From NCBI RefSeq assembly GCF_019320115.1, contig NC_089595.1:107772158-107836157 (forward strand): a DNA stretch of 64,000 nucleotides, read 5' to 3'. Origin of the DNA: Miscanthus floridulus (lineage: Eukaryota > Streptophyta > Magnoliopsida > Poales > Poaceae). Under the pieces are notes generated by a model. The model was not told where the DNA came from and ran no database searches. It saw only the letters and a list, made by a program, of their open reading frames with translations. Shown in pieces: positions 31,833 to 60,923 of this stretch. Numbering within the stretch: position 1 is the first letter of the stretch; every line of letters starts with the position of its first letter. Both the position numbers and the translations under genes were made by a program.

Positions 31833-34800
31833 ATGCCACCATCGCCAATGCTTAAGTATCCTGCCTCTGCATCTCTACCGCCGTTGAGCTCGCATCCATA
31901 TGCCCCCACCTCCAATAGATCCATGGTGTCGTTCCGACATCACCTTCCAGCGCAAGGAGGGCCTCATCCATCGTGGTCTTCTCCGCGCTTAGACCTTGGC
32001 CGAGGAGTGGCTACTGCTCGGCGATGAGGATTTGCCATCACCGCCCAATGGCTACGTGGTGTCATTCGCCCACTTCCACAAGCGTGGGCTCACAACCTCC
32101 ACCCACAAATTCCACCTAGGGCTGCTGCACTTCTACAAGATTGAGCTACAGCATCTCAATCCCAACGGGATCTAGCACATGGTGGCGTTCGTCGTGCTAT
32201 GCGAAGGATTCCTGAGGATCAGCCCCCACTTCAACTTGTGGAGGTATTTCTTCGCCGTCAGCCTCTAGAAGAAGAGGGAGAAGTGCGGCAGGCAGGAGCT
32301 ACACATGTCGATGGGGTGCGTCGGCATACAACTTCTGAACAATCGGGTCACACGAGTACCCATCCATGTGGCTCTCGATGTCCAACAAGAGGTGGCACTC
32401 GCAGTGGTTCTACCTCAAGAATGACGCCGTTGCCCCTCTGTCGGAGTTCACCGGGTGCCTGATCGAAGAGGCCTCGGAGCAGTGGGGGAAGTGGGGCATC
32501 CCGGTGAAGGACAAGAAGAAGATCCGAGACCACATCGCCGCCATCCACATCTTGAAGGAGAACAGCCTGACAAGGTCAGGCATCATTGAGGCTTACCACA
32601 CGAGGAGGGTGGCGCCGTTGATGACGCGCGCACTCCCTCTATATGTGTTGGCGCCTGAGGCGTCGTTCAACGGAACGGCACTCGCCGAGGGAACGCTCCC
32701 CAACTTTGAGATCACACAATGCATCAAGGAGGTGATAGAGCCTTTGTGGGATAATGCGGGTACCGCCCTCGACTTTGTCTACTTGGTGCCAGGGCATCCT
32801 CTAATGCTGCCGGAGCCAGGCTACGTTGTCTTCGTAAGTTTCCCTTTCTCTTGCCTTCTCTTTAATTGATTTCCTAACCCTGTGAGACTAACTTTGAGAG
32901 GGGCGGGACCAGCCAAGGGACCTCATCCTCATGGATCACCCAGCGCCACTACCGAGGGATTCAGCCATGAGGGTGGTGAATCGTGCCAAGGGTGAGCGAC
33001 TAAGGAAGGCAAAGGAGGACAAGAAGAGGAAGAAGCAGCAGAAGCTATAGGTGCGGGAATGAGGGGAGGACACCAACGACGATGATGACGATGACGATGG
33101 TGACAACGATGAGGTGATGGAGGAAGAAGAAACGATATCCGACGATATCGAGTGGGACAACCTAGAGAGTGAGGATGCACTGACAGGCGTCGGTTCGTCC
33201 TTTCAGGCGCTGGGACCTTTCCCATTCCATGGAGGGGAGGTCACGTCTGGGGAGCCGGTGGAGGTGGGCCGTACCGTTGGCCTGCCCTAGGAGCCAACAG
33301 AGGCGGGCGGCTCTTCCTTCGCACCCAAGGTTCTAGCGGAGGCGAGCGGCTCCACCATCGTGCCCCAAGCGCCAAGGGGAGTGGGGCGTTCCACCAATGT
33401 GCCCAAGGAGCTGCCAGGGGCGAGCCCCACTACCCAGGAGTAGGGGGCGGGCTCAAAACGGCCTCATTTCAATGAGGCAGAGCAAGGGTCGGGGGGTTCA
33501 TCCCTCAAACACATCTACCACCCGACGGTGCTAAGGTGAGTTATCAATTCCTCTATTTTTTCCTGTTTTAGTCAGATTTCATCATGACTTATGTTTTTCA
33601 TCCCTTACAGCGTCGACAGGCATCAGAATCCTTTGGTGCTGGCGCCGAAGAAGAGCATCGCCCTCCAATCGAGGCATCGGCCGTTGGTTGTTGTCACACC
33701 CATTTTGGGTGGGAGCGGCACCAGTGTGACCGCATCGCTGGCTGGTCAGGCACCGCCCATGGTGGTGCCTGTGCCCTCAGCGGGATGGGCAGACATGGGC
33801 ATTCAAGGGGTGCCTTTGGAGGTCGTGGAGCAGTCGGTGACGGCTGCGATACCGCTGCTAACGGTGGGGCGAATGGGGCTACCGATCGCACTCATGGCAC
33901 CGACCATGGTGTGTGCAATGCAGCTGGTCGTGACCCCACCAACACAGGTGGAGGTGGTGGCAGCTGTGATAGATGGGTCACAGCCGAGTGCAACTGCAGT
34001 GTCACCTGAGGCATTAGCGCGACCCTTGCCATCGGTGGCCCAAGCGATGGCGCCTGGCACGGGCCAAATGGAGTGGGACGTGGCCGAGGAGTCCTCGGGA
34101 GTCATGGTGCTGGGAGAAAGGTTATCATCCGCACCGCTGACCCCTTCCATCGCCGAAGGGGGCGTCCCGGTGGAGACATCACAGCGAGGGGGGTCAGGGG
34201 CGCTTAGGGCTGGTGTGGAGCCATCCCTAACCCTGACATCGGTGGGCAGTGGCTCACCCATGCGGGGCAAGCCCCTGCTCCAGTGGGCAGATCCACAGGA
34301 TCTGGCGTCGACGCTTTTTACCCTTGACAACGCCACAGAGAGGATGGAGCTGGAGAGCCTCGACGTAGGGATCGCGTCCGTGCTCGAGGCCCTAGACCAT
34401 GCCATGGGCGCATTACACGACGTCGTTGTTCCCTCTGGTAGGGTATTACTTGGTCCTGCTTCTTGCCCTTTTCTTCCTCTATATACTTTTTGTATCCTGA
34501 CGATTGTCTCCCTACAGTCCCTTATAGCTCGCAGCCAGGGAAAATCTCGGTTCCTTCGTCAACAGAAGGAAACCTTGGACCGCCTCATTGAGGAGGCATG
34601 GCTACGTAGGGAGGTGATAGCTCAGCTCATTACCACCCAACATAGGGTGGTCAAGCTGACTCCCCTCGCCAAGGAAGTGGCTAGTCTTCGGTCACGGGTG
34701 GCCGAGGCCTGTTGGGATGTTGACGAGGCCGAGAAAGCATTCGAGGCCCTGTTGGTGAGGTGACGGAAGGATGACGAAGAAGCCACCAGGGTCAGGAAGG

Positions 34801-45210: not shown

Positions 45211-45431
45211 GAACCCAAGGGGTCAAGCGAGACAGAGCCCGTCCCCAGAGGTCGGGCGAGGTGAAGCCGTGGCTCAGTGTCGGGCAAGGCAGAGCCCGTG
45301 GCATCGGGGTCTGACAAGGTGGAGCCCGCCCCTAGAGATCCGGCAAGGCGAAGCCCGTGGCTCGGGGTTGGATGAGGCAAAGCCCGTCCCCAGAGGTCGG
45401 GCGAAACAGAGATCATGACCACGAGGTCGGG
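45211..45431 (-). repeat. Tat LTR remnant, left piece
   Basis: gaacccaaggggtcaagcg... up to gaggtcggg, matching 30468 onward. It is interrupted by the young Tekay element and resumes at 60766. Confidence 0.75.
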
Positions 45432-48400
45432 TGTAACACCTCGGGTGTTAGCCTTGCATAACTTGACTTGCATAACATGAGCATGAGCATCAAGCATTCA
45501 TAAATCATCGTTTACAATTGAAACATCTGATCGAAACATATGAAACATTGCTTGTTATTTCATGTTCCCTGTAACATATGCATATGATCATGTGCAAATA
45601 AAGGCTAGTGTGTAATGTTGGTCACTATAACACCTTAGCTACACTTAGGTTAACAAAAGGAACCTTGTTCATGAAGACCACATTTCTTGATCAAGCATTT
45701 TAAGTGTTATTTCATGTGTTGACCTAAATGGCTATATGTGTGACTATTTCATGAAATGCTTGAATGACCTTGCAAATTGTTTTAACATGCTTAGAGTATC
45801 ATCATGAACAACTTTGGTATTTAGGGCTAGGGCTAAATTGGTCATTTAGCCATAGTTTGAATGTGTATCTTGATTTCAAAGTGACATGTTTGACTAAAGT
45901 TGAACTAGGTGTTAGAGGCCTTGCATGGAGGAGTTCACTAAAGCAAAGTTGTAGTGTTTGACATAAGGAACAACTTTCATTTTTATGTCATGGACTGATT
46001 TTGCTTCTAACAGGCTTGAATGGGTCCCACAAAAACCAGCAAAATCCAGTTTTCAACACTTAACAAATTTTCTAAGTGTATGCTCGACTGACAGCCTGAC
46101 GAGCCGACTTTGGATCGATTTTACTCGGTGTACGATGAGAATTGGGACGAGATCTTTGAACAACAGTTGTAGCTGGTACCTTGGGCTACAAAACTCATGT
46201 TGGGCATTTGCACGAAGGAGCCAAGGATCAGCGGATATATCGACTTGGAAACTCGTCGTCAGGCACTGCACCGGTTCACTGACGAAACTGAATCGGCTGT
46301 TCAGCTGTCTTCGGTGGCCGACCGTTGCCAGGACAGAGCCGCCGCGTGGAGCCAGCGGCTGGCCGCGCGTCGCCGGCGTCCTGCCCCGCGCGGCAGAGCC
46401 AGGCCCAGGCCGTCTTTATCAATCGCAGCGCTCGCCCGCTCCTACCCAGAGCCCCATTTTCATTTTCGCGGCCTCCTTCGCTCACCCGCAGCCGCCACCG
46501 TAGCTCAGGAGCGCCGCCGACGCCATTACCGGCGCCAGCTCGCCCTCGTCACCCCGCTGCCACCGCTGAAGCCGCGTAGTGCCCCCTCAGTCCCACTGCG
46601 CCTGCATTGCCAGCCGAAGTAGCACGGTAAGCTTCCGTGCCGCGTACGGTCCTTGCCGGAGCTCCGCCGCCGCAACCGTCGTCGTAGCCGCGCCGACTCC
46701 GACCTCCATTCGCTGAGCTAGTTGGTAAAATGGTTTCGCCATAGCTCGTTTATACTTGGCCGAACCTCCTTTCGAGCCTTCACGGCCAACTCCGGCGCCT
46801 TGCCGTCGTTCCGCCCGCCTTGCCGTCATAGCCGCCCGCCATGGTCGCCGGTGAGGAGCTTCGGTGCTCCTTCTAGCCGTGCGAAGGCCACCATCGGGTG
46901 CGGGTGGATGAGTAGACCACGTAGGCGTAGTCTCTACCGCCGGCGAGTTCACCGGCGACGAGCTAGGGCCGTGCCGCGTCGAACGCCGCCGTCTCCCCTG
47001 TTTTTCAGTCGATGACATGTGGGTCCGGCTGACCGGTGGGCCCCTGTTGCCAGTGACTAGTATTAGAAGGCTAGTTCATTCTTTTCAGATTTAAACCCGA
47101 ATTTCAAGTGTTTTGTTATTTTTGTATCTGCAGATTGGTAGCTCCAAAAATGTTGAAATAAATATGGTTGTGTTCCTTAGGAAGTGTAGTATTTAGGAAA
47201 AATATGTTCTTGGCTTCAACAGTAGAAATTTCTGGAGATTTAAATAGGGTTTTCAAATGTGCTTTTGAATGCATTTCAATTTGTTTATTTTATATCTAGA
47301 GTTCCTGTGCTCCAAAAATTATGAAATTTTTGTGGTAGGCTATTCTTGTTATACATGAGCTTGGATAAAAATTTGAGAACCAGTGCATGTGTAGATCTAT
47401 AGTTATAGATTTTTCTTTTATAAATAGTTAATCCTTGCATGAATTTTTATAAATTAATTATGAGTCCAAAATTCATGAAATTTATTGGAGATGATACTAG
47501 TACCATATGGATGCTAGGAAAAATAAGAAATCTGTTGCTTGACACTTTTCAATAGGATTTTCCATTTATGCTATTTCAAGCCTTGCTTCCTTATCATTTT
47601 TGTATAGGATGTTTTACTTAGTAAAATGACCTGAAAATTTTATAGTGGTCATTTGATAGCATTATTAAGGCTCTGTAAATTTCTGAGAATTTATTAAGCA
47701 CATCTGATATATATTTATTATTTAACCTAGATATCTAAATAAAATAATAAAGGCAATTTAATAAATAGTTTGGGCTTTGCCATTTTATTATCCTAACTAT
47801 GTTTGGTGTGCTTAAACTGTTGGTAGGTTCTAGGTTGTCAATTTGTGAATAATTACATGAAGTAGAGGTGTTATTACTTTATATTGCATGTTAAGTCATT
47901 TCCGGGCTGATTCTAGAAAATGATGAGTTGCATGTTGAAACTGATGTAGACTGTAAAAATGGTTAATAACAAAGTTGTAGAAAATTTGATAAGCTTTCCA
48001 GAAAGTCCAGGATCACTAGATTTGGAATTGTAGAACTCCAGTTATGAGTGAAACAAGTAGATACTGTTTATGGCATAGTCGATGCATTGTAGGAGTAGTT
48101 AGGTAGTAAGCGAGAAGAGATATGCACCTACTCAAACAACGTGATGCACTTGTTAACATATATGCATTCGTAATACTTATATCATACTCATGCATCTAGG
48201 ATCGGAGGAAGAAATCACGTTGCTGGAATTCGAAGAAGCAGAGGAAGGGAACCCGCAGGAGGATCCGCAAGCCGCAGCTCCCGAAGGCGTGGAGCAGAAC
48301 CCTGAAGAGCTTCCGGAGTGCCCTGACCACCGTCCTACCTCTTTTCTGCGAGGCAAGCCCCGGAGCATTATAAGTCTCCCAGTAATTTACAAATGTTTAC

Positions 48401-49850
48401 TTACGTATTTATGATTGACGCATTAGGTTATAAGAGTTGAATGAAACCACTTGATGCATGTACATTCCTTGTCCAGATATTACACCTTTAACCGGTATAG
48501 GTCCAGGATCGAATATATATATGCTTAGCCATGCTTAGACCGGTAGAAGTCGGGTGATGTCCTGTCACCTGCGAGATATAGGTGGATACCGGAGCACGGT
48601 TGGCTATATCTGCTATCGTGGAACAGAACCATGAGGTAAAAGTAAATTGAGACCGGACGGGAGGTCAATAGGGAAGCAACAAGGCATGGAGGTCTTGGGT
48701 GTGGACTTATCCCCGTCTATGTCGATTAAGGACCGTACCGTTGTTGGCGCTTCTGACAAGATTGAACGCATGCCTCTCACTTAGCTGGCCGGATAACTCG
48801 TTCCGACCGCGAAGCCGAGTAATTCAACTCAGGCCGGGAATCGTTCTGTTGTGCGCTCCTTCCGGGGAACGATCAGACTGAGCCCAAGGGCAGGTTTGGC
48901 CTGAGCATCCTGGCATCTGGTGTTCCAGATTGTGCGGCGCGGTACGAACCCGCGAAATGTGTACCTGAGTTGTACCAAAGGTGACCTAAGACTATCGTGG
49001 CTGGTAGATCTGGGTTTGTGTTAGGAATAAATTCCCAGCTGGTTGAAATCGATTCGAATCGCCGTCTCTCCCGGATAGTGAGAAACTTGGCTAGTCCCAA
49101 CATCGTAGTAACTGTGTTATGAAACATGATGGTTCGGATGAATATGGAACTACAATACCTGCTATGGTTACTATTGTATGATTCTAAATGATATACCACA
49201 TGTTTGGCACAGGGTAGTTGCTAATCTAGAAATGGATAGTTATAATTAACTTGATAAAGGAATCATAATCGTACAACGGTAATTGCCTTTTTCGCAAAAT
49301 GTTGTCAAGTTACGTCCACTTATACAGCCTTGCATAATCCTTGGAGTCAATTTATTTCTGGTTCATGACGGGTAAGTCTAGCTGAGTACCTTCTCGTACT
49401 CAGGGTTTATTTTCCCATTGTTGCAGATGGCACTGTGTATCATGGTTATTGCAAGAGTTGCTTCTATCCCGCTGTGGATGAGGAGTAAGCCTTGGGCAGG
49501 CTTCCTTAGTAATTCCTATCCTTGCTTTTGTGGATCGTGATCTGGCATGGCACTGTATCAAACTACGTTGGAAACTTATCTTCGAACTTATTTGCTTCCG
49601 CTTTAATTATCAAACTTGGTTTGTAATAACTTTCTATTCGTACTCTGATGATGAAAAGTATCTGTGAACTTATGTAATATGTGGCATGTATGTTGAATCC
49701 TGTACGATCTTGGTTGTTGTAAATCGTTTATCGAGACCCGTTGTGGTACTCGACGGACTACCGGGTTTATATGGGTTCAAGTACGACAGTGCAACCGCTT
49801 GCGGATTGCCATTATACTTGTATTCTTATAAATTGGTCGGTTCTGCGACA
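45432..49850 (+). repeat. 5' LTR of the Tekay-type element
   Basis: TGTAACACCTCGGGTGTTA to GGTTCTGCGACA. The GC-rich part at 46310-47020 gives long open frames on both strands, which are LTR sequence rather than genes. I noted a single difference from the 3' LTR (A at 48667, where the 3' LTR has G in a CpG at 59582). A gtaagt donor (49371) and tgttgcag acceptor (about 49427) lie near the end. Confidence 0.95.
48190..48414 (+). CDS. Small acidic ORF inside the LTR (also at 59105-59329)
   Basis: 74 codons: MHLGSEEEITLLEFEEAEEG, then a glutamate/proline-rich stretch and LRGKPRS. The diverged solo LTR on the minus strand carries a comparable acidic frame (37372-37467, MHVDNELVEFVPAGEQEYEE), followed by the same caaggcaagccccgg phrase. 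Either it is a small conserved peptide or exon, or the DNA itself is conserved for another reason. No family known to me, and expression is unproven. Confidence 0.35.
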   Translation: MHLGSEEEITLLEFEEAEEGNPQEDPQAAAPEGVEQNPEELPECPDHRPTSFLRGKPRSIISLPVIYKCLLTYL

Positions 49851-49852
49851 GC

Positions 49853-49867
49853 TGGCATCAGAGCAAG
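49853..49867 (+). other. Primer-binding site (initiator tRNA-Met type)
   Basis: TGGCATCAGAGCAAG two bases after the LTR end resembles the usual plant PBS TGGTATCAGAGC with one mismatch. Confidence 0.75.
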
Positions 49868-50125
49868 ATTCAACGTTAATTGTCACAAGTGTATTTAAAA
49901 CAAAAGTTTTTGTTTCCGAAAACCCTTCTCTAGCAACTAATAGTCAAATAATAGGTATTTGAAATCTAAAGTGCGCCATTGATCACTTTCCTTATGCCCA
50001 AATTAAGGACTATTAGGTGGCTATTTAAGTACTAACATGGGGGTTTTTACTTCGTCGTCCATACGGCGTGCTATAGTATGGATGCCATTCACTTGAGTGG
50101 TAATGTATGGATCAAATGCCTCTAC

Positions 50126-50137
50126 GCCAAGGTAAGA
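50126..50137 (+). promoter_or_regulatory. Strong 5' splice site in the element leader
   Basis: gccaag|gtaaga (cut after 50131) matches the plant donor consensus closely. The first candidate acceptor is ggtacag at 50615, immediately before the extra ORF's ATG, and a second is cttcgcag at 51890, immediately before the gag-pol ATG. Confidence 0.5.
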
Positions 50138-50615
50138 TGAGTGTATGACCGCAAGATGTGAGCGTGCGGTCGGGAAGAGTTAGCTTTGGTACGGCTATGT
50201 ATGCATGCTTGCATGTGTATATGGTACGTATTTAATTGTGGGTTTAAATTCTTAACGGGTAGATTGATATGGAAGTATATGTATGGGTATACATATATGG
50301 AAGTATTTACAATTACATTCTGCATATTCATTATGGGTTTAGGGCTGAAATGAAGTTTTATGCAGGTACACTAACAACGAAACGTGTAGCTCGACTAGTT
50401 ACGATATATATGAGAGAACGTATGTGTGCCACCGTGTCTACCGTTAGAAACAAATTTTTCCTAAGTTTGTGAGGACGTACGGCACGAACATGCATCATGT
50501 TAAAATACCATTCACATAATTACATTGTTCCTCCCCTTATAAAGATTCTTACTCGGTTATGTAACTCTTATCCATTATGGCATTGTCTCACCAATGGTAC
50601 ATGTTAATGGTACAG

Positions 50616-51539
50616 ATGGCACGCACCAAGCAGACTGCTCGCAAGTCCACCGGAGGCAGAGCTCCTAGCCGTCAGCTTGCTCCACGTACCCGTCAACGTC
50701 ACACGTTCCTTGGAGAGTTTGGGATGCCTACACTCTTGTGGAGAGTGCTCAGCTATGTAGGTTATCCTGATGGAATGGAACCCCGCTACTTCTGGGCGAA
50801 TGAGCGGTTGGGAGAAGGTCTCTTAGTTACTGTGGAGGCCGTTGTTCGTCCCCGAGGTGACGATTCTGAGTGGACAGGCTGGTGTTATGAGTCGACTGGC
50901 AGGACTGCTGAAGAAGCAGCTGGCAGGGCAGCCTTTGGAATCTTGAGGGATATCATGGATCGTTTTCCTCAGGCGCTGGCAGCCGCTTTGGTTGGAGTCT
51001 TTCCCAGAGGTAACCCATCCACTGACTCATGGCAGCAGGCAAGAGGAAGATCTTTGGAAATTGGTGCAGCAGAAGGGCAGAACAGTGATAACCCTGCAAT
51101 GAGCGCCATGTTCGCAGTGATGAGAGTGTTAGATGGAGTTGAGGGTAGCCTCAGACGTGTGTCTAGTGCTCTTGGTCATGCCCGTGAAGACCGACGTCAG
51201 CTTCAGAGAGAGCACGACATCGAGGTTGAGAGGCTCACTGAAGAGATGACTCGGTTAACTCACCAGCGAAATGCAGCCTGGGCCAGGGAAGATGTCCTGA
51301 GAGCTCGACAGTTTGAGCTGGGACAGCAGCTGGCCAATGCTGAAGAGTACAACGATAATCTGCATGAAGAGGTTCATCTACTGCACAATCAGCTCCACCC
51401 TTATGTACCACCTGGAGCCGCAGAAATGGATCTAGAGGGGTACGAAGAAGAAGAAGAAGTGGCACCTGAAGAAGAAGCAGAACCTGATGAAGGAAATGAT
51501 TCTGCGTCTGACCTCGATAGTGATCATGATGAGGATTAG
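50616..51539 (+). CDS. Extra ORF with histone H3 tail mimic, coiled coil and acidic tail
   Basis: 307 residues. I chose the ATG at 50616, not the in-frame ATG at 50577, because it follows a splice-acceptor-like acag and gives the N-terminus MARTKQTARKSTGG. After Met removal, residues 1-13 equal histone H3, and 18 of the first 21 positions match. K4 and K9 remain, whereas K14, K18, K23 and K27 are arginine. No histone fold follows. Residues ~30-125 form a globular region with WTGWCYESTGRTAEEAAGRAAFGIL, resembling the end of a double-stranded-RNA-binding fold (weak inference). A coiled coil spans ~172-262, and residues 269-307 are mostly Glu/Asp. It lies between the PBS and gag-pol, in sense, fully open. 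Its role could be chromatin or histone-modifier interaction. This is not a histone gene, although the tail was probably captured from one. Confidence 0.85.
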   Translation: MARTKQTARKSTGGRAPSRQLAPRTRQRHTFLGEFGMPTLLWRVLSYVGYPDGMEPRYFWANERLGEGLLVTVEAVVRPRGDDSEWTGWCYESTGRTAEEAAGRAAFGILRDIMDRFPQALAAALVGVFPRGNPSTDSWQQARGRSLEIGAAEGQNSDNPAMSAMFAVMRVLDGVEGSLRRVSSALGHAREDRRQLQREHDIEVERLTEEMTRLTHQRNAAWAREDVLRARQFELGQQLANAEEYNDNLHEEVHLLHNQLHPYVPPGAAEMDLEGYEEEEEVAPEEEAEPDEGNDSASDLDSDHDED

Positions 51540-51890
51540 ATCGCTTAGCATTTAGGGGAAAGACTAATGTATCACCTCTATTTATGTAATGGACATGTAG
51601 TTTGAAGTTGGCATTAGTAACCAGACTATCATGTAATGTTAACCGCACGTTTGGATGAACGTCAATGCAATTCCTGTACCTTGTCAGTAATTACGCTTTA
51701 AATTGCATGCGTTATGAGCACGATAAGTGGTCAAATTGGCGATGTCATGTTGCGAGAATGAATTATTATGCCTCTGTTTTTATTGTGCTTTTGAGAATTT
51801 TCTCCAGTAATTTCAGTTTGGCATGATTATCTAATTCATCTGCAATCTCTTGGCATCAACCAATAATCGCTTATTGTTGCAACTTCGCAG
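51540..51890 (+). other. Spacer between extra ORF and gag-pol, probable intron end
   Basis: Non-coding, T-rich toward the end, finishing gttgcaacttcgcag directly before the gag-pol ATG, consistent with a 3' splice site. Confidence 0.5.
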
Positions 51891-54800
51891 ATGACGCGCA
51901 CCCGTGCTGGAGCTGGTGGCAGCCAGGATGGCAACCAGGATGACTTGCCACCCCCACCGCCACCGTCTGCTCAGGAGTTCTTTGCCCAGTTCCTGGGTAG
52001 CCAGAGGACGATGGAAGAAGCCTTGCGCCTTATCGCGCAAAACACTGCTCGTGGCCACCCACAGCAACCAGGGGCCGAGCCAAATCAGCACAGTTCATTC
52101 AAGGAGTTTCTGGACACAAAGCCTCCGATTTTCAAGGTGGCTGAGGAACCACTGCAGGCCGATGAGTGGCTGAATACAATCGAGCAGAAGTTTCGTCTGC
52201 TAAGGGTCACAGAGCACCTAAAAGCAGAATATGCTTCTCATCAATTGCAAGGACCAGCAGGAATCTGGTGGACGCACTTTCTGTCGTCTCTGCCTGCTAA
52301 TGCGAGAGTGACCTGGGATCAATTCAAGTTGGCTTTTAGGGGACACCATATTCCCCCGGGCCTGATGCGCATGAAAGCAGCAGAATTTATGAGGCTCACT
52401 CAGGGAACCAAGTCACTCACAGAATATATGCACGCATTCAACAACTTGTCAAGATATGCTCCCAGTTTCGTGGATACAGAAGAGAAAAAGATTGAGAGTT
52501 TCAAGCGAGGGTTGGGTACCAAATTAATGAAGACTATGGCAAACTCCCGATGTGCCACGTACAATGAATTCATTAGTGATGCCTTGACCCAAGAAAATCA
52601 CAACAACATGCATGCAGTTGCTAAAGGTCGCAAGAGGGCCTATGAGGCCGGTGCATCCGGATCTTTCCAGTCGAAAGCGCCTATCACAGCTAGGCCACAA
52701 TTCCGTCCACCTGCACCCAAGTTCAGGCCTCCACCACCGAAAGCTCAGAATAACAGGCCACAGAAACCATTTCGTAAGGCGTTTACTATTGCCTTACCAA
52801 AAGGAAATGGCAATCAGGACAGCTCCGCCGGATTCAAAAGTAATCAACCTTGTTTCAACTGCAACCAACTGGGTCATTGGTCCAAGGAGTGCCCCCACCC
52901 CAGGAGGAATGGCAACCCAAACCAGAACAATCAGAGGCAGGTGAATGCCAGGGCACGTCAGGGACAAGTGCACTATACCGCTGTGGAGGAAGTGCCCGCC
53001 GGAGAAGTTGTCACGGCTGGTATGTTTCTTGTCAACAAGCAACCCGCTGTTGTTTTATTTGATTCCGGAGCTTCTCATTCATTCATGAGTCAAGCATTTG
53101 CATCTAGACATGATCAAGAAATAATAGAAGTAAGTAAAGGGGGTTTTAACATAAGTTCAGCAGGGGGTACTGTTACTACCAAAAAGATAGTCAAAAATGT
53201 ACTCATTTTGATACAAGGGAGGGAGTACACAACAGATTTGATAATATTGCCGGGATTGTCGATAAGTGTAATCTTAGGCATGAATTGGATGAAGGATCAT
53301 GGTGTTCTTATCGACACTAGCACCCGTACTATCATGTTGAGAGAACCCATGGGAGGGAATGCTTTTCTAGTTCCACTCTCCCGCGAATTCGAACCCCAAC
53401 ATTTAGCCTGTGCTATCCAAGCCACCACCATATGTGATATTCCAGTGGTTTGTGAGTTTCCGGATGTATTTCCAGAGGAATTACCAGGTCTACCCCCGGA
53501 TAGGGACGTGGAATTTAAGATTGAATTAGTGCCAGGTACCGCACCCATATCCAGAAGGCCATATAGAATGCCACCCAATGAGTTAGCAGAACTTAAGGTT
53601 CAATTGCAAGATCTATTGGACAAAGGTCTTATCCAACCTAGCTCATCTCCGTGGGGATGTCCAGCACTGTTTGTGAAAAAGAAGGATAAGTCACTGAGGA
53701 TGTGTGTAGATTACAGACCGCTCAATGCTGTGACCATCAAGAACAAATATCCGTTACCCCGCATCGACATCTTGTTCGATCAGCTAGCAAAGGCAAAAGT
53801 ATTCTCCAAAATTGACTTAAGATCAGGTTACCATCAGATAAAGATCAGACCGGAGGATATACCCAAAACTGCTTTCTCTACTAGGTACGGCTTATACGAG
53901 TATTTGGTTATGTCTTTCGGACTAACAAATGCTCCAGCCTACTTTATGTACCTAATGAACTCGGTATTCATGCCCGAACTGGATAAGTTCGTGGTCGTGT
54001 TTATCGATGACATATTGATTTATTCAGAAAATGAGTCCGATCATGAAGAGCATCTGAGGATTGTCCTATCCAGACTGAGGGAGCATAAGCTATATGCCAA
54101 GTTTAGCAAATGTGAATTTTGGATGAGCAAAGTGCCTTTCTTAGGTCACATTTTATCCAGGGATGGAATCTCAGTAGACCCATCAAAAGTACAAGAGGTC
54201 ATGGATTGGAAAGCCCCAACGTCGGTGCATGAAGTTCGGAGTTTTCTAGGGTTAGCAGGATACTATCGTCGGTTTATTCCAGATTTCTCAAAAATAGCTA
54301 AGCCTATGACCAGACTACTTCAGAAAGATGAGAAATACAAGTGGACACCAGAATGTGAAACAGCTTTTCACACCCTCAGAACTTTGTTGACTACCGCACC
54401 AGTGCTAGCACAACCAGACATTGAGAAGCCTTTTGATGTATTTTGTGATGCATCAGGAATAGGTTTGGGATGTGTACTTATGCAAGAAGGTAGAGTAATT
54501 GCATATGCCTCTCGGCAACTGAGAAAACATGAAGTCAACTATCCTACACATGATTTGAAACTTGCCGCCGTTGTCCATGCACTAAAGATATGGAGACATT
54601 ACTTGTTGGGCAATGTATGTCATATCTTTACTGACCACAAAAGCCTCAAGTATATCTTTACCCAGCCAGAACTAAACATGAGGCAACGAAGATGGTTGGA
54701 ATTGATTAAGGACTATAATTTGGAAGTGCATTACCATCCGGGTAAAGCTAATGTAGTAGCCGATGCACTTAGTCGGAAGTCCCATTGCAACACAGTGGAA

Positions 54801-56303
54801 GCGCTATTGGAAGATGGATTCAACTTGCTACATCCTGCTGTATTACACAATATCACAATCAGTTGTTCGCTTGAAGGCAAAATCATAGAGCTACAACAGA
54901 CTGATGTAGGAATAAGTCACATAAAGAGAAAAATGCAAGAGCAAGAAACAAAACATTTTAGATTGGACGAAAGAGGTGTATTATGGTTTGAGGACCGACT
55001 AGTGGTGCCGAAAGACCGTGAGCTAAGGAATCAGATTTTAGAAGAAGCTCACTCGTCCAAATTGTCTATCCACCCGGGTAGTAGTAAAATGTATCAAGAT
55101 TTGAAAACCCGTTTTTGGTGGACTAAGATGAAGAAAGAGATCGCAGCCTATGTTGCTAGGTGTGATAACTGCAGCAGAGTGAAAGCCGTCCATATGAAAA
55201 CCGCTGGATTACTTCAGCCACTGCCTATTCCAGGATGGAAATGGGAAGAGATCAGTATGGACTTTATTACAGGCCTTCCAACAACACCACAAGGTCACGA
55301 TTCAATCTGGGTCATTGTTGATCGTCTCACCAAGTCAGCACACTTCATACCAGTGAACACGCGGTATATAGTTGGGAAATACGCGGAAATATATGTTGCC
55401 CAGATTGTGAGATTGCATGGAGTACCTAGGACCATAATCTCAGATAGAGGACCACAGTTCATAGCTCGTTTCTGGGAGCACTTACACCAAGCTTTGGGAA
55501 CCAAGCTAATCAGAAGTTCAGCTTATCATCCGCAAACTTCAGGACAGACAGAGAGAGTAAACCAAATCCTAGAAGATTTACTTAGAGCTTGTGTAATATC
55601 TTCAAAAGGTTCATGGGAGAAATGGTTACCTTTAGCTGAATTCTCCTATAACAACAGTTATCAAGCGAGTATCAAAATGGCTCCATTTGAAGCCTTGTAT
55701 GGCAGAAAGTGCAGAACTCCATTGAATTGGATTGAGCCCGGTGAAAGGAGATATTTCGGTATTGATTTTGTCAATGAAGCCGAAGAACAAATACGTATCA
55801 TCCAACAACACATGAAGGCAGCTCAATCAAGACAGAAGAGTTATGCCGATCGAAGAAGAAGACCACTAACTTTTGAAGTAGGTGACTATGTGTACTTGAG
55901 AGTATCACCCATGAAAGGTGTGAAGAGATTTGGGATGAAAAAGAAGCTTTCACCAAGATATGTAGGGCCATACAAAATCTTGGAACGAAAAGGAAACGTT
56001 GCGTATAAACTACAACTACCACCAGAGATGAGTGCAATCTTTGATGTGTTCCATGTTTCGCAGCTAAAGAAATGTCTTCGAGTACCGGAAGAAGCTATTG
56101 CACCCACCAACGTGCAGCTTCAATCGGATTTGACCTATGAAGAAAAGCCAATTCGAGTATTGGAAGTGATGGAGAGAGTAACAAGGAGTAAGATCATTAA
56201 GTTCTATAAGGTGGGGTGGAACAATCATAGTGAACAAGATGCTACATGGGAAAGAGAAGATTATCTGCAAGAAGTTTATCCCGCCTTTTTTCAAGAATGG
56301 TAG
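51891..56303 (+). CDS. gag-pol: Gag-Pol polyprotein (Tekay-type Ty3/gypsy chromovirus)
   Basis: 1470 codons without interruption. Order: a proline-rich start, Retrotrans_gag at about residues 100-230 ([24 protein letters not shown]), CCHC zinc knuckle [14 protein letters not shown] at 321-334, aspartic protease FDSGASHSF with the catalytic Asp at 391, RT with [14 protein letters not shown] and FIDDIL (Asp706/707), RNase H with FCDASG (Asp853), integrase zinc finger HP..CDNC, DDE core Asp1124, Asp1185, Glu1221 (35 residues between the last two), then a GPY-like [12 protein letters not shown] segment and a C-terminal chromodomain around 1410-1465 ([25 protein letters not shown]). All catalytic residues are present. 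gag and pol share one frame, so proteolysis should separate the products. Confidence 0.95.
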
Positions 56304-56333
56304 GTCTTGCAAATCTCGGGACGAGATTTTTAT

Positions 56334-56346
56334 AAGGGGGAGGGGC
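56334..56346 (+). other. Polypurine tract
   Basis: aagggggaggggc directly precedes the 3' LTR and would prime plus-strand DNA synthesis. Confidence 0.85.
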
Positions 56347-59300
56347 TGTAACACCTCGGGTGTTAGCCTTGCATAACTTGACTTGCATAACATGAGCATG
56401 AGCATCAAGCATTCATAAATCATCGTTTACAATTGAAACATCTGATCGAAACATATGAAACATTGCTTGTTATTTCATGTTCCCTGTAACATATGCATAT
56501 GATCATGTGCAAATAAAGGCTAGTGTGTAATGTTGGTCACTATAACACCTTAGCTACACTTAGGTTAACAAAAGGAACCTTGTTCATGAAGACCACATTT
56601 CTTGATCAAGCATTTTAAGTGTTATTTCATGTGTTGACCTAAATGGCTATATGTGTGACTATTTCATGAAATGCTTGAATGACCTTGCAAATTGTTTTAA
56701 CATGCTTAGAGTATCATCATGAACAACTTTGGTATTTAGGGCTAGGGCTAAATTGGTCATTTAGCCATAGTTTGAATGTGTATCTTGATTTCAAAGTGAC
56801 ATGTTTGACTAAAGTTGAACTAGGTGTTAGAGGCCTTGCATGGAGGAGTTCACTAAAGCAAAGTTGTAGTGTTTGACATAAGGAACAACTTTCATTTTTA
56901 TGTCATGGACTGATTTTGCTTCTAACAGGCTTGAATGGGTCCCACAAAAACCAGCAAAATCCAGTTTTCAACACTTAACAAATTTTCTAAGTGTATGCTC
57001 GACTGACAGCCTGACGAGCCGACTTTGGATCGATTTTACTCGGTGTACGATGAGAATTGGGACGAGATCTTTGAACAACAGTTGTAGCTGGTACCTTGGG
57101 CTACAAAACTCATGTTGGGCATTTGCACGAAGGAGCCAAGGATCAGCGGATATATCGACTTGGAAACTCGTCGTCAGGCACTGCACCGGTTCACTGACGA
57201 AACTGAATCGGCTGTTCAGCTGTCTTCGGTGGCCGACCGTTGCCAGGACAGAGCCGCCGCGTGGAGCCAGCGGCTGGCCGCGCGTCGCCGGCGTCCTGCC
57301 CCGCGCGGCAGAGCCAGGCCCAGGCCGTCTTTATCAATCGCAGCGCTCGCCCGCTCCTACCCAGAGCCCCATTTTCATTTTCGCGGCCTCCTTCGCTCAC
57401 CCGCAGCCGCCACCGTAGCTCAGGAGCGCCGCCGACGCCATTACCGGCGCCAGCTCGCCCTCGTCACCCCGCTGCCACCGCTGAAGCCGCGTAGTGCCCC
57501 CTCAGTCCCACTGCGCCTGCATTGCCAGCCGAAGTAGCACGGTAAGCTTCCGTGCCGCGTACGGTCCTTGCCGGAGCTCCGCCGCCGCAACCGTCGTCGT
57601 AGCCGCGCCGACTCCGACCTCCATTCGCTGAGCTAGTTGGTAAAATGGTTTCGCCATAGCTCGTTTATACTTGGCCGAACCTCCTTTCGAGCCTTCACGG
57701 CCAACTCCGGCGCCTTGCCGTCGTTCCGCCCGCCTTGCCGTCATAGCCGCCCGCCATGGTCGCCGGTGAGGAGCTTCGGTGCTCCTTCTAGCCGTGCGAA
57801 GGCCACCATCGGGTGCGGGTGGATGAGTAGACCACGTAGGCGTAGTCTCTACCGCCGGCGAGTTCACCGGCGACGAGCTAGGGCCGTGCCGCGTCGAACG
57901 CCGCCGTCTCCCCTGTTTTTCAGTCGATGACATGTGGGTCCGGCTGACCGGTGGGCCCCTGTTGCCAGTGACTAGTATTAGAAGGCTAGTTCATTCTTTT
58001 CAGATTTAAACCCGAATTTCAAGTGTTTTGTTATTTTTGTATCTGCAGATTGGTAGCTCCAAAAATGTTGAAATAAATATGGTTGTGTTCCTTAGGAAGT
58101 GTAGTATTTAGGAAAAATATGTTCTTGGCTTCAACAGTAGAAATTTCTGGAGATTTAAATAGGGTTTTCAAATGTGCTTTTGAATGCATTTCAATTTGTT
58201 TATTTTATATCTAGAGTTCCTGTGCTCCAAAAATTATGAAATTTTTGTGGTAGGCTATTCTTGTTATACATGAGCTTGGATAAAAATTTGAGAACCAGTG
58301 CATGTGTAGATCTATAGTTATAGATTTTTCTTTTATAAATAGTTAATCCTTGCATGAATTTTTATAAATTAATTATGAGTCCAAAATTCATGAAATTTAT
58401 TGGAGATGATACTAGTACCATATGGATGCTAGGAAAAATAAGAAATCTGTTGCTTGACACTTTTCAATAGGATTTTCCATTTATGCTATTTCAAGCCTTG
58501 CTTCCTTATCATTTTTGTATAGGATGTTTTACTTAGTAAAATGACCTGAAAATTTTATAGTGGTCATTTGATAGCATTATTAAGGCTCTGTAAATTTCTG
58601 AGAATTTATTAAGCACATCTGATATATATTTATTATTTAACCTAGATATCTAAATAAAATAATAAAGGCAATTTAATAAATAGTTTGGGCTTTGCCATTT
58701 TATTATCCTAACTATGTTTGGTGTGCTTAAACTGTTGGTAGGTTCTAGGTTGTCAATTTGTGAATAATTACATGAAGTAGAGGTGTTATTACTTTATATT
58801 GCATGTTAAGTCATTTCCGGGCTGATTCTAGAAAATGATGAGTTGCATGTTGAAACTGATGTAGACTGTAAAAATGGTTAATAACAAAGTTGTAGAAAAT
58901 TTGATAAGCTTTCCAGAAAGTCCAGGATCACTAGATTTGGAATTGTAGAACTCCAGTTATGAGTGAAACAAGTAGATACTGTTTATGGCATAGTCGATGC
59001 ATTGTAGGAGTAGTTAGGTAGTAAGCGAGAAGAGATATGCACCTACTCAAACAACGTGATGCACTTGTTAACATATATGCATTCGTAATACTTATATCAT
59101 ACTCATGCATCTAGGATCGGAGGAAGAAATCACGTTGCTGGAATTCGAAGAAGCAGAGGAAGGGAACCCGCAGGAGGATCCGCAAGCCGCAGCTCCCGAA
59201 GGCGTGGAGCAGAACCCTGAAGAGCTTCCGGAGTGCCCTGACCACCGTCCTACCTCTTTTCTGCGAGGCAAGCCCCGGAGCATTATAAGTCTCCCAGTAA

Positions 59301-60765
59301 TTTACAAATGTTTACTTACGTATTTATGATTGACGCATTAGGTTATAAGAGTTGAATGAAACCACTTGATGCATGTACATTCCTTGTCCAGATATTACAC
59401 CTTTAACCGGTATAGGTCCAGGATCGAATATATATATGCTTAGCCATGCTTAGACCGGTAGAAGTCGGGTGATGTCCTGTCACCTGCGAGATATAGGTGG
59501 ATACCGGAGCACGGTTGGCTATATCTGCTATCGTGGAACAGAACCATGAGGTAAAAGTAAATTGAGACCGGACGGGAGGTCGATAGGGAAGCAACAAGGC
59601 ATGGAGGTCTTGGGTGTGGACTTATCCCCGTCTATGTCGATTAAGGACCGTACCGTTGTTGGCGCTTCTGACAAGATTGAACGCATGCCTCTCACTTAGC
59701 TGGCCGGATAACTCGTTCCGACCGCGAAGCCGAGTAATTCAACTCAGGCCGGGAATCGTTCTGTTGTGCGCTCCTTCCGGGGAACGATCAGACTGAGCCC
59801 AAGGGCAGGTTTGGCCTGAGCATCCTGGCATCTGGTGTTCCAGATTGTGCGGCGCGGTACGAACCCGCGAAATGTGTACCTGAGTTGTACCAAAGGTGAC
59901 CTAAGACTATCGTGGCTGGTAGATCTGGGTTTGTGTTAGGAATAAATTCCCAGCTGGTTGAAATCGATTCGAATCGCCGTCTCTCCCGGATAGTGAGAAA
60001 CTTGGCTAGTCCCAACATCGTAGTAACTGTGTTATGAAACATGATGGTTCGGATGAATATGGAACTACAATACCTGCTATGGTTACTATTGTATGATTCT
60101 AAATGATATACCACATGTTTGGCACAGGGTAGTTGCTAATCTAGAAATGGATAGTTATAATTAACTTGATAAAGGAATCATAATCGTACAACGGTAATTG
60201 CCTTTTTCGCAAAATGTTGTCAAGTTACGTCCACTTATACAGCCTTGCATAATCCTTGGAGTCAATTTATTTCTGGTTCATGACGGGTAAGTCTAGCTGA
60301 GTACCTTCTCGTACTCAGGGTTTATTTTCCCATTGTTGCAGATGGCACTGTGTATCATGGTTATTGCAAGAGTTGCTTCTATCCCGCTGTGGATGAGGAG
60401 TAAGCCTTGGGCAGGCTTCCTTAGTAATTCCTATCCTTGCTTTTGTGGATCGTGATCTGGCATGGCACTGTATCAAACTACGTTGGAAACTTATCTTCGA
60501 ACTTATTTGCTTCCGCTTTAATTATCAAACTTGGTTTGTAATAACTTTCTATTCGTACTCTGATGATGAAAAGTATCTGTGAACTTATGTAATATGTGGC
60601 ATGTATGTTGAATCCTGTACGATCTTGGTTGTTGTAAATCGTTTATCGAGACCCGTTGTGGTACTCGACGGACTACCGGGTTTATATGGGTTCAAGTACG
60701 ACAGTGCAACCGCTTGCGGATTGCCATTATACTTGTATTCTTATAAATTGGTCGGTTCTGCGACA
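56347..60765 (+). repeat. 3' LTR of the Tekay-type element
   Basis: Same length as the 5' LTR and offset by exactly 10,915 bp throughout. The only difference I noted is G at 59582. Confidence 0.95.
59105..59329 (+). CDS. Small acidic ORF, 3' LTR copy
   Basis: Identical to the ORF at 48190-48414, being in the duplicate LTR. It is not an independent gene. Confidence 0.3.
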   Translation: MHLGSEEEITLLEFEEAEEGNPQEDPQAAAPEGVEQNPEELPECPDHRPTSFLRGKPRSIISLPVIYKCLLTYL

Positions 60766-60923
60766 TCGGGCGAGGCAGAGCCCACCCCCAGAGGTCGGGC
60801 GAGGCAGAGCCCATGCACCTGGGGTTGGTTGGAGCTATAGTTATGCTCTTGACTACACGGATGAATCAAAGTTGCTGACCATTAGCTCCTCCTCTTTAGG
60901 TACCCTAGTATTAGTCCCTGACA
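60766..60923 (-). repeat. Tat LTR remnant, right piece, with polypurine tract
   Basis: Continues the remnant at 45211-45431 after the Tekay insertion and ends ctgaca. gtagcccccgaccctac (60924-60940) is the minus-strand PPT of the next Tat internal region. Confidence 0.7.

Follow-up and report, generated by a model that had tools for sequence, protein, structure and literature searches.

The window, i.e. the whole stretch of 64,000 nucleotides of Miscanthus floridulus DNA that was analysed, carries an intact, chromovirus-like Ty3/gypsy element (45432..60765), which, like all features described below, lies on the forward strand. The element is flanked on both sides by the 5-bp target site duplication TCGGG (45427-45431 and 60766-60770). 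The 5′ LTR (45432..49850) measures 4,419 bp and differs from the 3′ LTR (56347..60765) at one of 4,419 sites (position 48667 of the 5′ LTR). At the grass substitution rate of 1.3e-8 per site and year, this divergence gives an age of ~9,000 years; the element with ORF0 is very young; the preliminary description had called it young. By direct reading, a primer-binding-site-like motif, TGGCATCAGAGC, lies just 3′ of the 5′ LTR (49853..49864) and, in our view, resembles an initiator-tRNA site, and a polypurine tract, AAGGGGGAGGGGC, lies ahead of the 3′ LTR (56334..56346). The gag-pol frame (51891..56303) comprises gag, a zinc knuckle, protease, RT, RNase H and integrase. The integrase end (56172..56300) is chromodomain-like, with a weak Pfam Chromo match below the cut-off (E 0.0012, 19.1 bits versus 25.1). 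We read this chromodomain as a member of group II, and in plants the chromodomains of that group lack aromatic-cage residues (PMC3350952, PMC6317226). Elsewhere in the window, an open frame of 390 residues (33591-34763) matched nothing in Pfam at E up to 0.01.

The longest ATG-free stretch of the LTR and leader (46198..46729; 533 nt from ATG to ATG, G+C 0.66) is perhaps the start of the transcript leader. Across copies, the longest ATG-free stretch of this LTR piece spanned 277–659 nt in all 21 sequences, with a G+C of at least 0.54 in 20 of them. The LTR middle (46000-47100) was far more diverged among copies than ORF0 (94–98% in those copies); of 20 copies (L049-L068), 17 had matches within 45786-46695, at 72–88% identity, and three had none. 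In our reading, the pattern reflects a promoter or leader module that turns over quickly.

Between the 5′ LTR and gag, in an element whose LTRs exceed 3 kb, lies a separate open reading frame of 307 residues, ORF0 (50616..51539). It starts with MARTKQTARKSTGGRAPSRQLAPR and its frame is intact, and the preliminary account of an intact 307-residue ORF with an H3-like start proved correct letter for letter. Codons 1-24 (50616..50687) form the H3-like tail, i.e. Met followed by H3 residues 1-23, in which the lysine matching H3 K9 is ORF residue 10 (codon 50643..50645). The tail is followed by a middle region (residues 37-130, 50724..51005), a coiled-coil-like region (residues 186-262, 51171..51401), recognised from weak, sub-threshold coiled-coil matches and alignments, and an acidic C-terminus (residues 263-307, 51402..51536), in which 21 of 45 residues are Asp or Glu. 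When the first 40 residues were compared with the PDB, histone H3 came out on top (best E 4.1e-7, residues 1-24 aligned), so the likeness of the tail to H3 is not due to chance. The histone fold itself was not matched, as Pfam, at E up to 1, gave no histone hit for the protein, and the six frames of the window held no further tail motif of the ORF0 type. A profile search of ORF0 relatives against the PDB returned eight weak matches (E 0.036–0.69), mostly to coiled-coil proteins. Among viral contigs, no relative of the ORF0-type proteins P0012 or P0001 was confirmed.

Tail-bearing proteins occurred in two architectures. One consists of tail, middle region, coiled coil and acidic end; the other has the tail, coil and acidic end only, the middle region being absent in several families. 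ORFs matching the middle region of a further, tail-bearing ORF0-type protein, P0061, had no tail and started with MAEE... or MADE....

Copies and origin of the H3-like tail

The genome searched comprised 2.68 Gb in 2,420 contigs. The family of the window's ORF0 (family 1) has at least 129 copies there, this being the number scored of 13,894 first-look candidates. All 129 matched over 306-307 residues at 94–100% identity, and 111 had no in-frame stop. We sampled 48 of them, namely the eight best (including the window copy) and 40 chosen along the list. The whole tail, Met and H3 1-23, was unchanged in 44 of the 48; the remaining four carried R2C (one copy), R8H (one) or R23H (two). A second family in the same genome was found with protein P0022, which shares 58% identity with ORF0 where the two align. 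It has at least 150 copies at 94–96% identity (150 scored of 9,014 candidates, 20 of which were sampled), and its ORF0 begins with MARTKQTARKSTGGRAPRRPLALR. Of a third family, which has tail and coil but no middle region, there are at least decayed copies. In the genome search with P0061 (125 scored of 10,261 candidates), the tail end alone was matched at four places (L113-L116), and all four read MAHTK[C/R]TARKSTGGR[A/V]PRH, with K4 and K9 kept and in-frame stops downstream. Two copies stood out by their surroundings. In L031, the leader is unrelated and the family sequence begins only ~12 bases ahead of the ORF0 ATG, which looks like a recombination close to the acceptor described below. In L036 (G000:C8:4801074-4802000), the ORF0 copy lies inside an open frame of 917 residues and is perhaps fused in frame with its surroundings.

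A search with PF00125 for the histone genes of the host gave 150 scored matches of 237, and short stretches of four genes were read, three with split exons and one intronless. Split exons are a trait of H3.3-type genes, and the three split genes are named H3.3-type on this basis. In all three, codon 24 (H3 K23) is AAG and is followed by GT and then by in-frame stops, which suggests that their first coding exon consists of codons 1-24. The likeness between ORF0 and H3 ends at H3 residue 23, i.e. at the same exon end. The same limit appears in the column entropy of the superfamily, which is 0.00–0.76 bits at H3 positions 16-23 (16, 20 and 21 being anchored) and 2.05–2.44 bits at positions 24-31.

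The codons point in the same direction. ORF0 uses the same codon as the split gene L112 at 12 of 18 shared residues (null mean 5.2, P 0.0001), as each of the other two split genes at 10 of 18 (P 0.0016 and 0.0014) and as the intronless gene at 7 of 18 (null mean 3.4, P 0.011). For family 2, the matches amount to 5-6 of 18 with the split genes and 6 of 18 with the intronless gene. On the 5′ side of the ATG, no similarity between ORF0 and the host genes was visible by eye, so that the 5′ exon limit is unmatched. Capture of a cellular exon, like the exon match itself, is read from the sequences and is well supported. The simplest history would be a single old capture of an H3.3-type first coding exon, followed by long selection at the protein level.

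Conservation of the tail and selection on it

Three protein searches gave 54, 8 and 421 matches, of which the best 120 of the 421 were listed. The survey set contained 172 database proteins among the matches listed and the window's own protein, 173 in all; the database matches presumably represent plant DNA in metagenomes. The tails were anchored on T6, A7, R8, S10, T11, G12 and the P16/L20/A21 block, and residue 9 was not used. This gave an anchored tail for 142 of the 173; the remaining 31 records lack the beginning of the protein and are uninformative on the tail. Within the matches listed, residue 9 was Lys in all 142 anchored tails. In the same 142 tails, position 4 was Lys in 68, Arg in 72 and His in two; position 18 was His in 134, Arg in seven, Cys in one and never Lys; and position 23 was Arg in 132, His in four, Cys in four and Lys in two. 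Well kept were also S10 (140 of the 142 listed), R8 (136) and T6 (133), all of them anchor residues. P16 and L20 were used in the anchor as well, so their constancy is no evidence. Residue 1 was Ala in 82 and Pro in 55 of these tails, and Q5 varied freely. The commonest strings between G12 and P16 among the 142 listed were PIGV (52), GRA (40) and GRV (15), and PKGV, in nine of the tails listed, retains a lysine near position 14. A large subfamily begins with MPPRTRKTARKS, having an extra residue and Pro in place of A1. K9 is the only invariant lysine of the tail among the anchored tails listed.

An approximate tree was built for the 112 longer proteins, which form 18 groups at 60% identity. 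On this tree, K9 changed 0 times, S10 twice, K4 five times, R8 six times, R2 13 times and Q5 15 times. The tails are non-independent, with 61 of the 112 proteins in one group, and the search favours shared short words; the counts should therefore not be taken as independent events.

Selection was examined within and between the families. Among variants shared by at least two copies of family 1, ORF residues 2-22 showed 0 nonsynonymous and seven synonymous changes, and the whole ORF showed 45 and 116 (ratio 0.12). R23H, found in two of the 48 copies, falls just outside this segment. Within family 1, the contrast between the tail and the rest of the protein (0:7 versus 45:109) was not significant (P 0.19), the tail being too short. 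Between families 1 and 2, compared with one copy each, residues 2-22 differed at 11 of 18 synonymous and 3 of 45 nonsynonymous sites, as against 36% of the nonsynonymous sites in the rest of the protein (Fisher P 1.3e-5 for the tail contrast). Silent divergence was alike in the tail and the rest (0.61 and 0.74, P 0.27). H3 residues 1-16 are identical in the two families, and eight of these codons are silently different. By these comparisons, constraint within the protein is strongest in the tail, which is under purifying selection.

In the preliminary description, the tail was presented as a possible methylatable, hardly acetylatable H3 mimic, in which K4 and K9 are unchanged and the acetylatable lysines are replaced by Arg. 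The tail does recur in related elements, in two families, traces of a third and the 142 of 173 proteins anchored among the matches listed. The tail is not confined to this one copy, which the 129 and 150 scored copies of the two families exclude, and the purifying selection looked for there is borne out by the comparison between families. The change of acetylatable lysines to Arg holds for the sequence as written, but K27 lies outside the H3 homology; as nothing beyond residue 23 is homologous, reading an Arg there as a changed K27 is an accident of numbering. K9 is kept while other lysines vary, as proposed, but K4 does not share this constancy. The idea of the mimic thus survives as far as K9 and the loss of most lysines are concerned, without its K4 part. 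A role directed at K4, or at a free A1-R2-T3-K4, is unsupported and was downgraded, because Arg stands at K4 in half of the anchored tails and a large subfamily starts with MPPRTRKTARKS. The ORF0 tail would accordingly be described as a putative K9-centred mimic and not as a mimic of K4 and K9.

Translation start

In unspliced RNA, the leader (49851-50615) contains 31 ATGs. An in-frame ATG stands at codon -3 and/or -5 in all 48 family 1 copies, and another at codon -13 in 28 of the 48. With these upstream in-frame ATGs, the tail would be buried in the product of the unspliced RNA, with residues before A1. Directly before the ORF0 ATG lies the splice-acceptor-like sequence GTRCAG (50610..50615), whose CAG is invariant in the 48 copies. 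AG directly precedes the ATG of the tail in 48/48 copies of family 1, 20/20 of family 2 and 4/4 of the third family, whose decayed copies all have the context CTACAG/ATG. The gag ATG is likewise directly preceded by an acceptor-like sequence, TCGCAG (51885..51890), with AG in 44 of 47 copies and gaps or N in the other three. CAG before both the ORF0 and gag ATGs suggests alternative 3′ splice sites and two messages.

A candidate intron spans 50132..50615, from the donor CCAAG/GTAAGA to the acceptor GTACAG/ATG. By our simple consensus score, this donor reaches 22 of 23, the best value of the LTR and leader. We also considered a fixed splice donor in the LTR. The donor-like motif CACG/GTAAGC occurs at 46627, within the ATG-free LTR stretch; the window copy and only 4 of 20 others have a motif scoring at least 20 there. 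This part of the LTR is too diverged, and the LTR donor was dropped; given the scarce motif and the diverged LTR, we claim the acceptor alone.

Of 20 loci read for tail-less relatives, 13 (L089, L091, L093-L096, L102-L108) have their ATG directly after a pyrimidine-rich run, which ends in CAG in ten and in TAG, an in-frame stop, in three. Six of these 13 are near-identical, and the other seven loci did not show such a start. In 33 database tails that could be extended, the residue before Met was Gln in 24, Asp in seven, Arg in one and Ser in one. Asp in 7 of 33 means that AG/ATG is not general and that the PRTRK-type subfamily differs. We infer that AG/ATG is a conserved splice acceptor, and that a spliced start would expose the tail.

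Possible roles of the tail and related systems

We propose, with a probability of about 0.4, that ORF0 supplies an H3K9-site mimic that derives from a captured exon, is kept by selection, and may be methylated and dock to readers on silent chromatin. After splicing of the ORF0 mRNA, translation would start at MARTK. The exposed TARKS site could be methylated by host H3K9 methyltransferases, of which SUVH4/5/6 represent the type, and the methylated site could be read by host H3K9me readers of the CMT3, LHP1 or ADCP1 type. The coiled coil would make the protein multivalent, and the rest of ORF0 may carry the element RNA or another component of the element. Complexes of the element would then dock to silent chromatin, a safe place for new copies. 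With a probably multivalent protein, a selected TARKS that would be exposed and acetylatable lysines that are mostly gone, the docking reading uses most of the evidence. It is preferred over titration because nucleosomal H3 should vastly outnumber any plausible dose of ORF0. In wider terms, and just as tentatively, an H3.3 exon may have been domesticated by a retrotransposon superfamily as a methylatable H3K9 tail that steers the element to silencing or shields it from silencing. The element's own chromodomain was considered as a reader of the tail and set aside, with the domain below the Pfam cut-off and group II, to which we assign it, lacking aromatic-cage residues.

Much of the same evidence, namely the invariant K9 with the acetylatable lysines lost, the purifying selection and the many copies (129 and 150 scored), would also suit an anti-silencing decoy, in which the K9 mimic occupies H3K9 methyltransferases or readers near the nascent chromatin of the element and weakens H3K9me2 and CHG methylation. 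A parallel in outcome, not in sequence, is offered by Vandal DNA transposons, whose extra ORFs protect from silencing (PMC11728184). Titration against an excess of H3 would need a strong local concentration or a higher affinity, and we regard the decoy as unlikely. We give similarly little weight to the tail as an import or chaperone handle, where the basic H3.3 tail would act as an NLS or engage histone importins or chaperones and methylation of K9 would be irrelevant. The tail does stay strongly basic, K18 and K23 having become His or Arg, and nuclear localisation is predicted for the extra ORFs of grass Tekay elements (PMC11728184). Such a handle, however, should allow Lys to Arg at position 9 as it does at position 4, and this was found in none of the 142 tails among the matches listed; nuclear import alone would leave the absence of Arg at K9 in this set unaccounted for. 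Less probable still is an RNA-binding accessory, either a silencing suppressor or an RNA chaperone, that would act through its middle region, with the tail only as an aid to localisation. Tail-less relatives in the genome have ORFs similar to the middle region, and a DRBM-like fold was reported for maize and sorghum Tekay extra ORFs, with a TM-score of 0.35–0.37 (PMC11728184). Against this, Pfam gave no dsRBD in ten ORF0-type proteins, eight of them with the middle region (E up to 1 for P0001 and up to 10 for nine relatives), and several tail-bearing families have no middle region, so that the tail occurs without it.

Two further explanations dispense with a role for the tail or with its continuous descent, and we consider both very improbable. 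A passive relic, i.e. an exon caught by chance and drifting with the element, would fit the well-supported capture of a cellular exon but not a tail that is the slowest part of the protein, with silent sites diverged at 11 of 18 and H3 residues 1-16 identical. Repeated recapture from, or gene conversion by, the H3.3 genes of the host could maintain the likeness, and the codons of family 1 do resemble those of the H3.3-type genes (12 and 10 of 18). Family 2, however, shares only 5-6 of 18 codons with the H3.3-type genes, and the families share derived, non-H3 residues: His or Arg at 18, mostly P22 and R23, and R14 or a changed stretch. The shared residues at 18, 22 and 23 argue against repeated recapture.

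The H3 similarity as such is probably not new. Steinbauerova et al. (Genetica 139:1543) reportedly noted in 2011 that some extra ORFs of grass chromoviruses are partly similar to a histone H3 gene, and are said to have treated this similarity as a transduced piece of a gene. Those ORFs very probably belong to the same superfamily and show the same H3 similarity as ORF0; the exon-exact limits, the sole K9, selection on the tail and a role as a mimic reportedly do not figure there. This already tempers the view in the preliminary description that no protein of this kind had been described. That view is also corrected by the ORF0 of Retrosat2, RIRE3 and RIRE8, described together with that of ZMsat2 and Sorsat2 (Gao et al. 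2012, PMC3485330). The ORF0 described there resembles ours: it is an additional reading frame ahead of gag-pol in grass elements whose LTRs reach ~3 kb or more, it evolves fast, and it has no established function. It differs in that enzyme functions were inferred from homology models. The words "histone", "chromodomain" and "ARTK" have 0 occurrences in the main text of PMC3485330. The 5′ aORF of Tekay elements in maize, sorghum and rice shares the position and a long helix near the C-terminus with ORF0; it is predicted to be nuclear, a DRBM-like fold is suggested for it, and the role proposed, unlike ours, lies in RNA silencing (PMC11728184). "Histone" has 0 occurrences in the main text of PMC11728184 and in the review PMC7264820, and extra ORFs are treated as highly heterogeneous in PMC6317226. 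The titles and abstract openings searched, a set with most subscription papers outside it, revealed no H3 mimic in a plant retrotransposon. The exon-exact origin, the invariant K9 with other lysines lost, the selection test and the AG/ATG start were absent from the literature searched.

Examples of histone mimicry come from a few host enzymes and from animal viruses. The NS1 tail of H3N2 influenza virus imitates the N-terminal region of H3 with a short C-terminal motif centred on K4. ORF0 differs from NS1 in that its site is K9, not K4, and in its captured exon, which NS1 is not known to have. Closer in this respect are G9a/GLP, which also carry a short H3-like site outside histones that is methylated by an H3K9 methyltransferase and bound by HP1; according to PMC9768651, they are self-methylating host enzymes, whereas ORF0 has an N-terminal, exon-derived tail in a mobile element, with putative methylation. 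Mimicry by ORF0 would involve a precise H3.3 exon, placed N-terminally and kept through long divergence in an abundant transposon.

H3K9 is the site of the transposon-silencing mark in plants. If the ORF0 site is methylated and read, this would explain what ORF0 does, which published work leaves open. The proposal, if true, would provide a testable link between retrotransposons, H3K9 readers and the landing sites of new copies, and it would mean that a self-encoded histone-tail mimic has been amplified to hundreds of copies in one genome. Even otherwise, the superfamily can serve as a natural experiment for asking which parts of the H3 tail are important to H3K9 factors.
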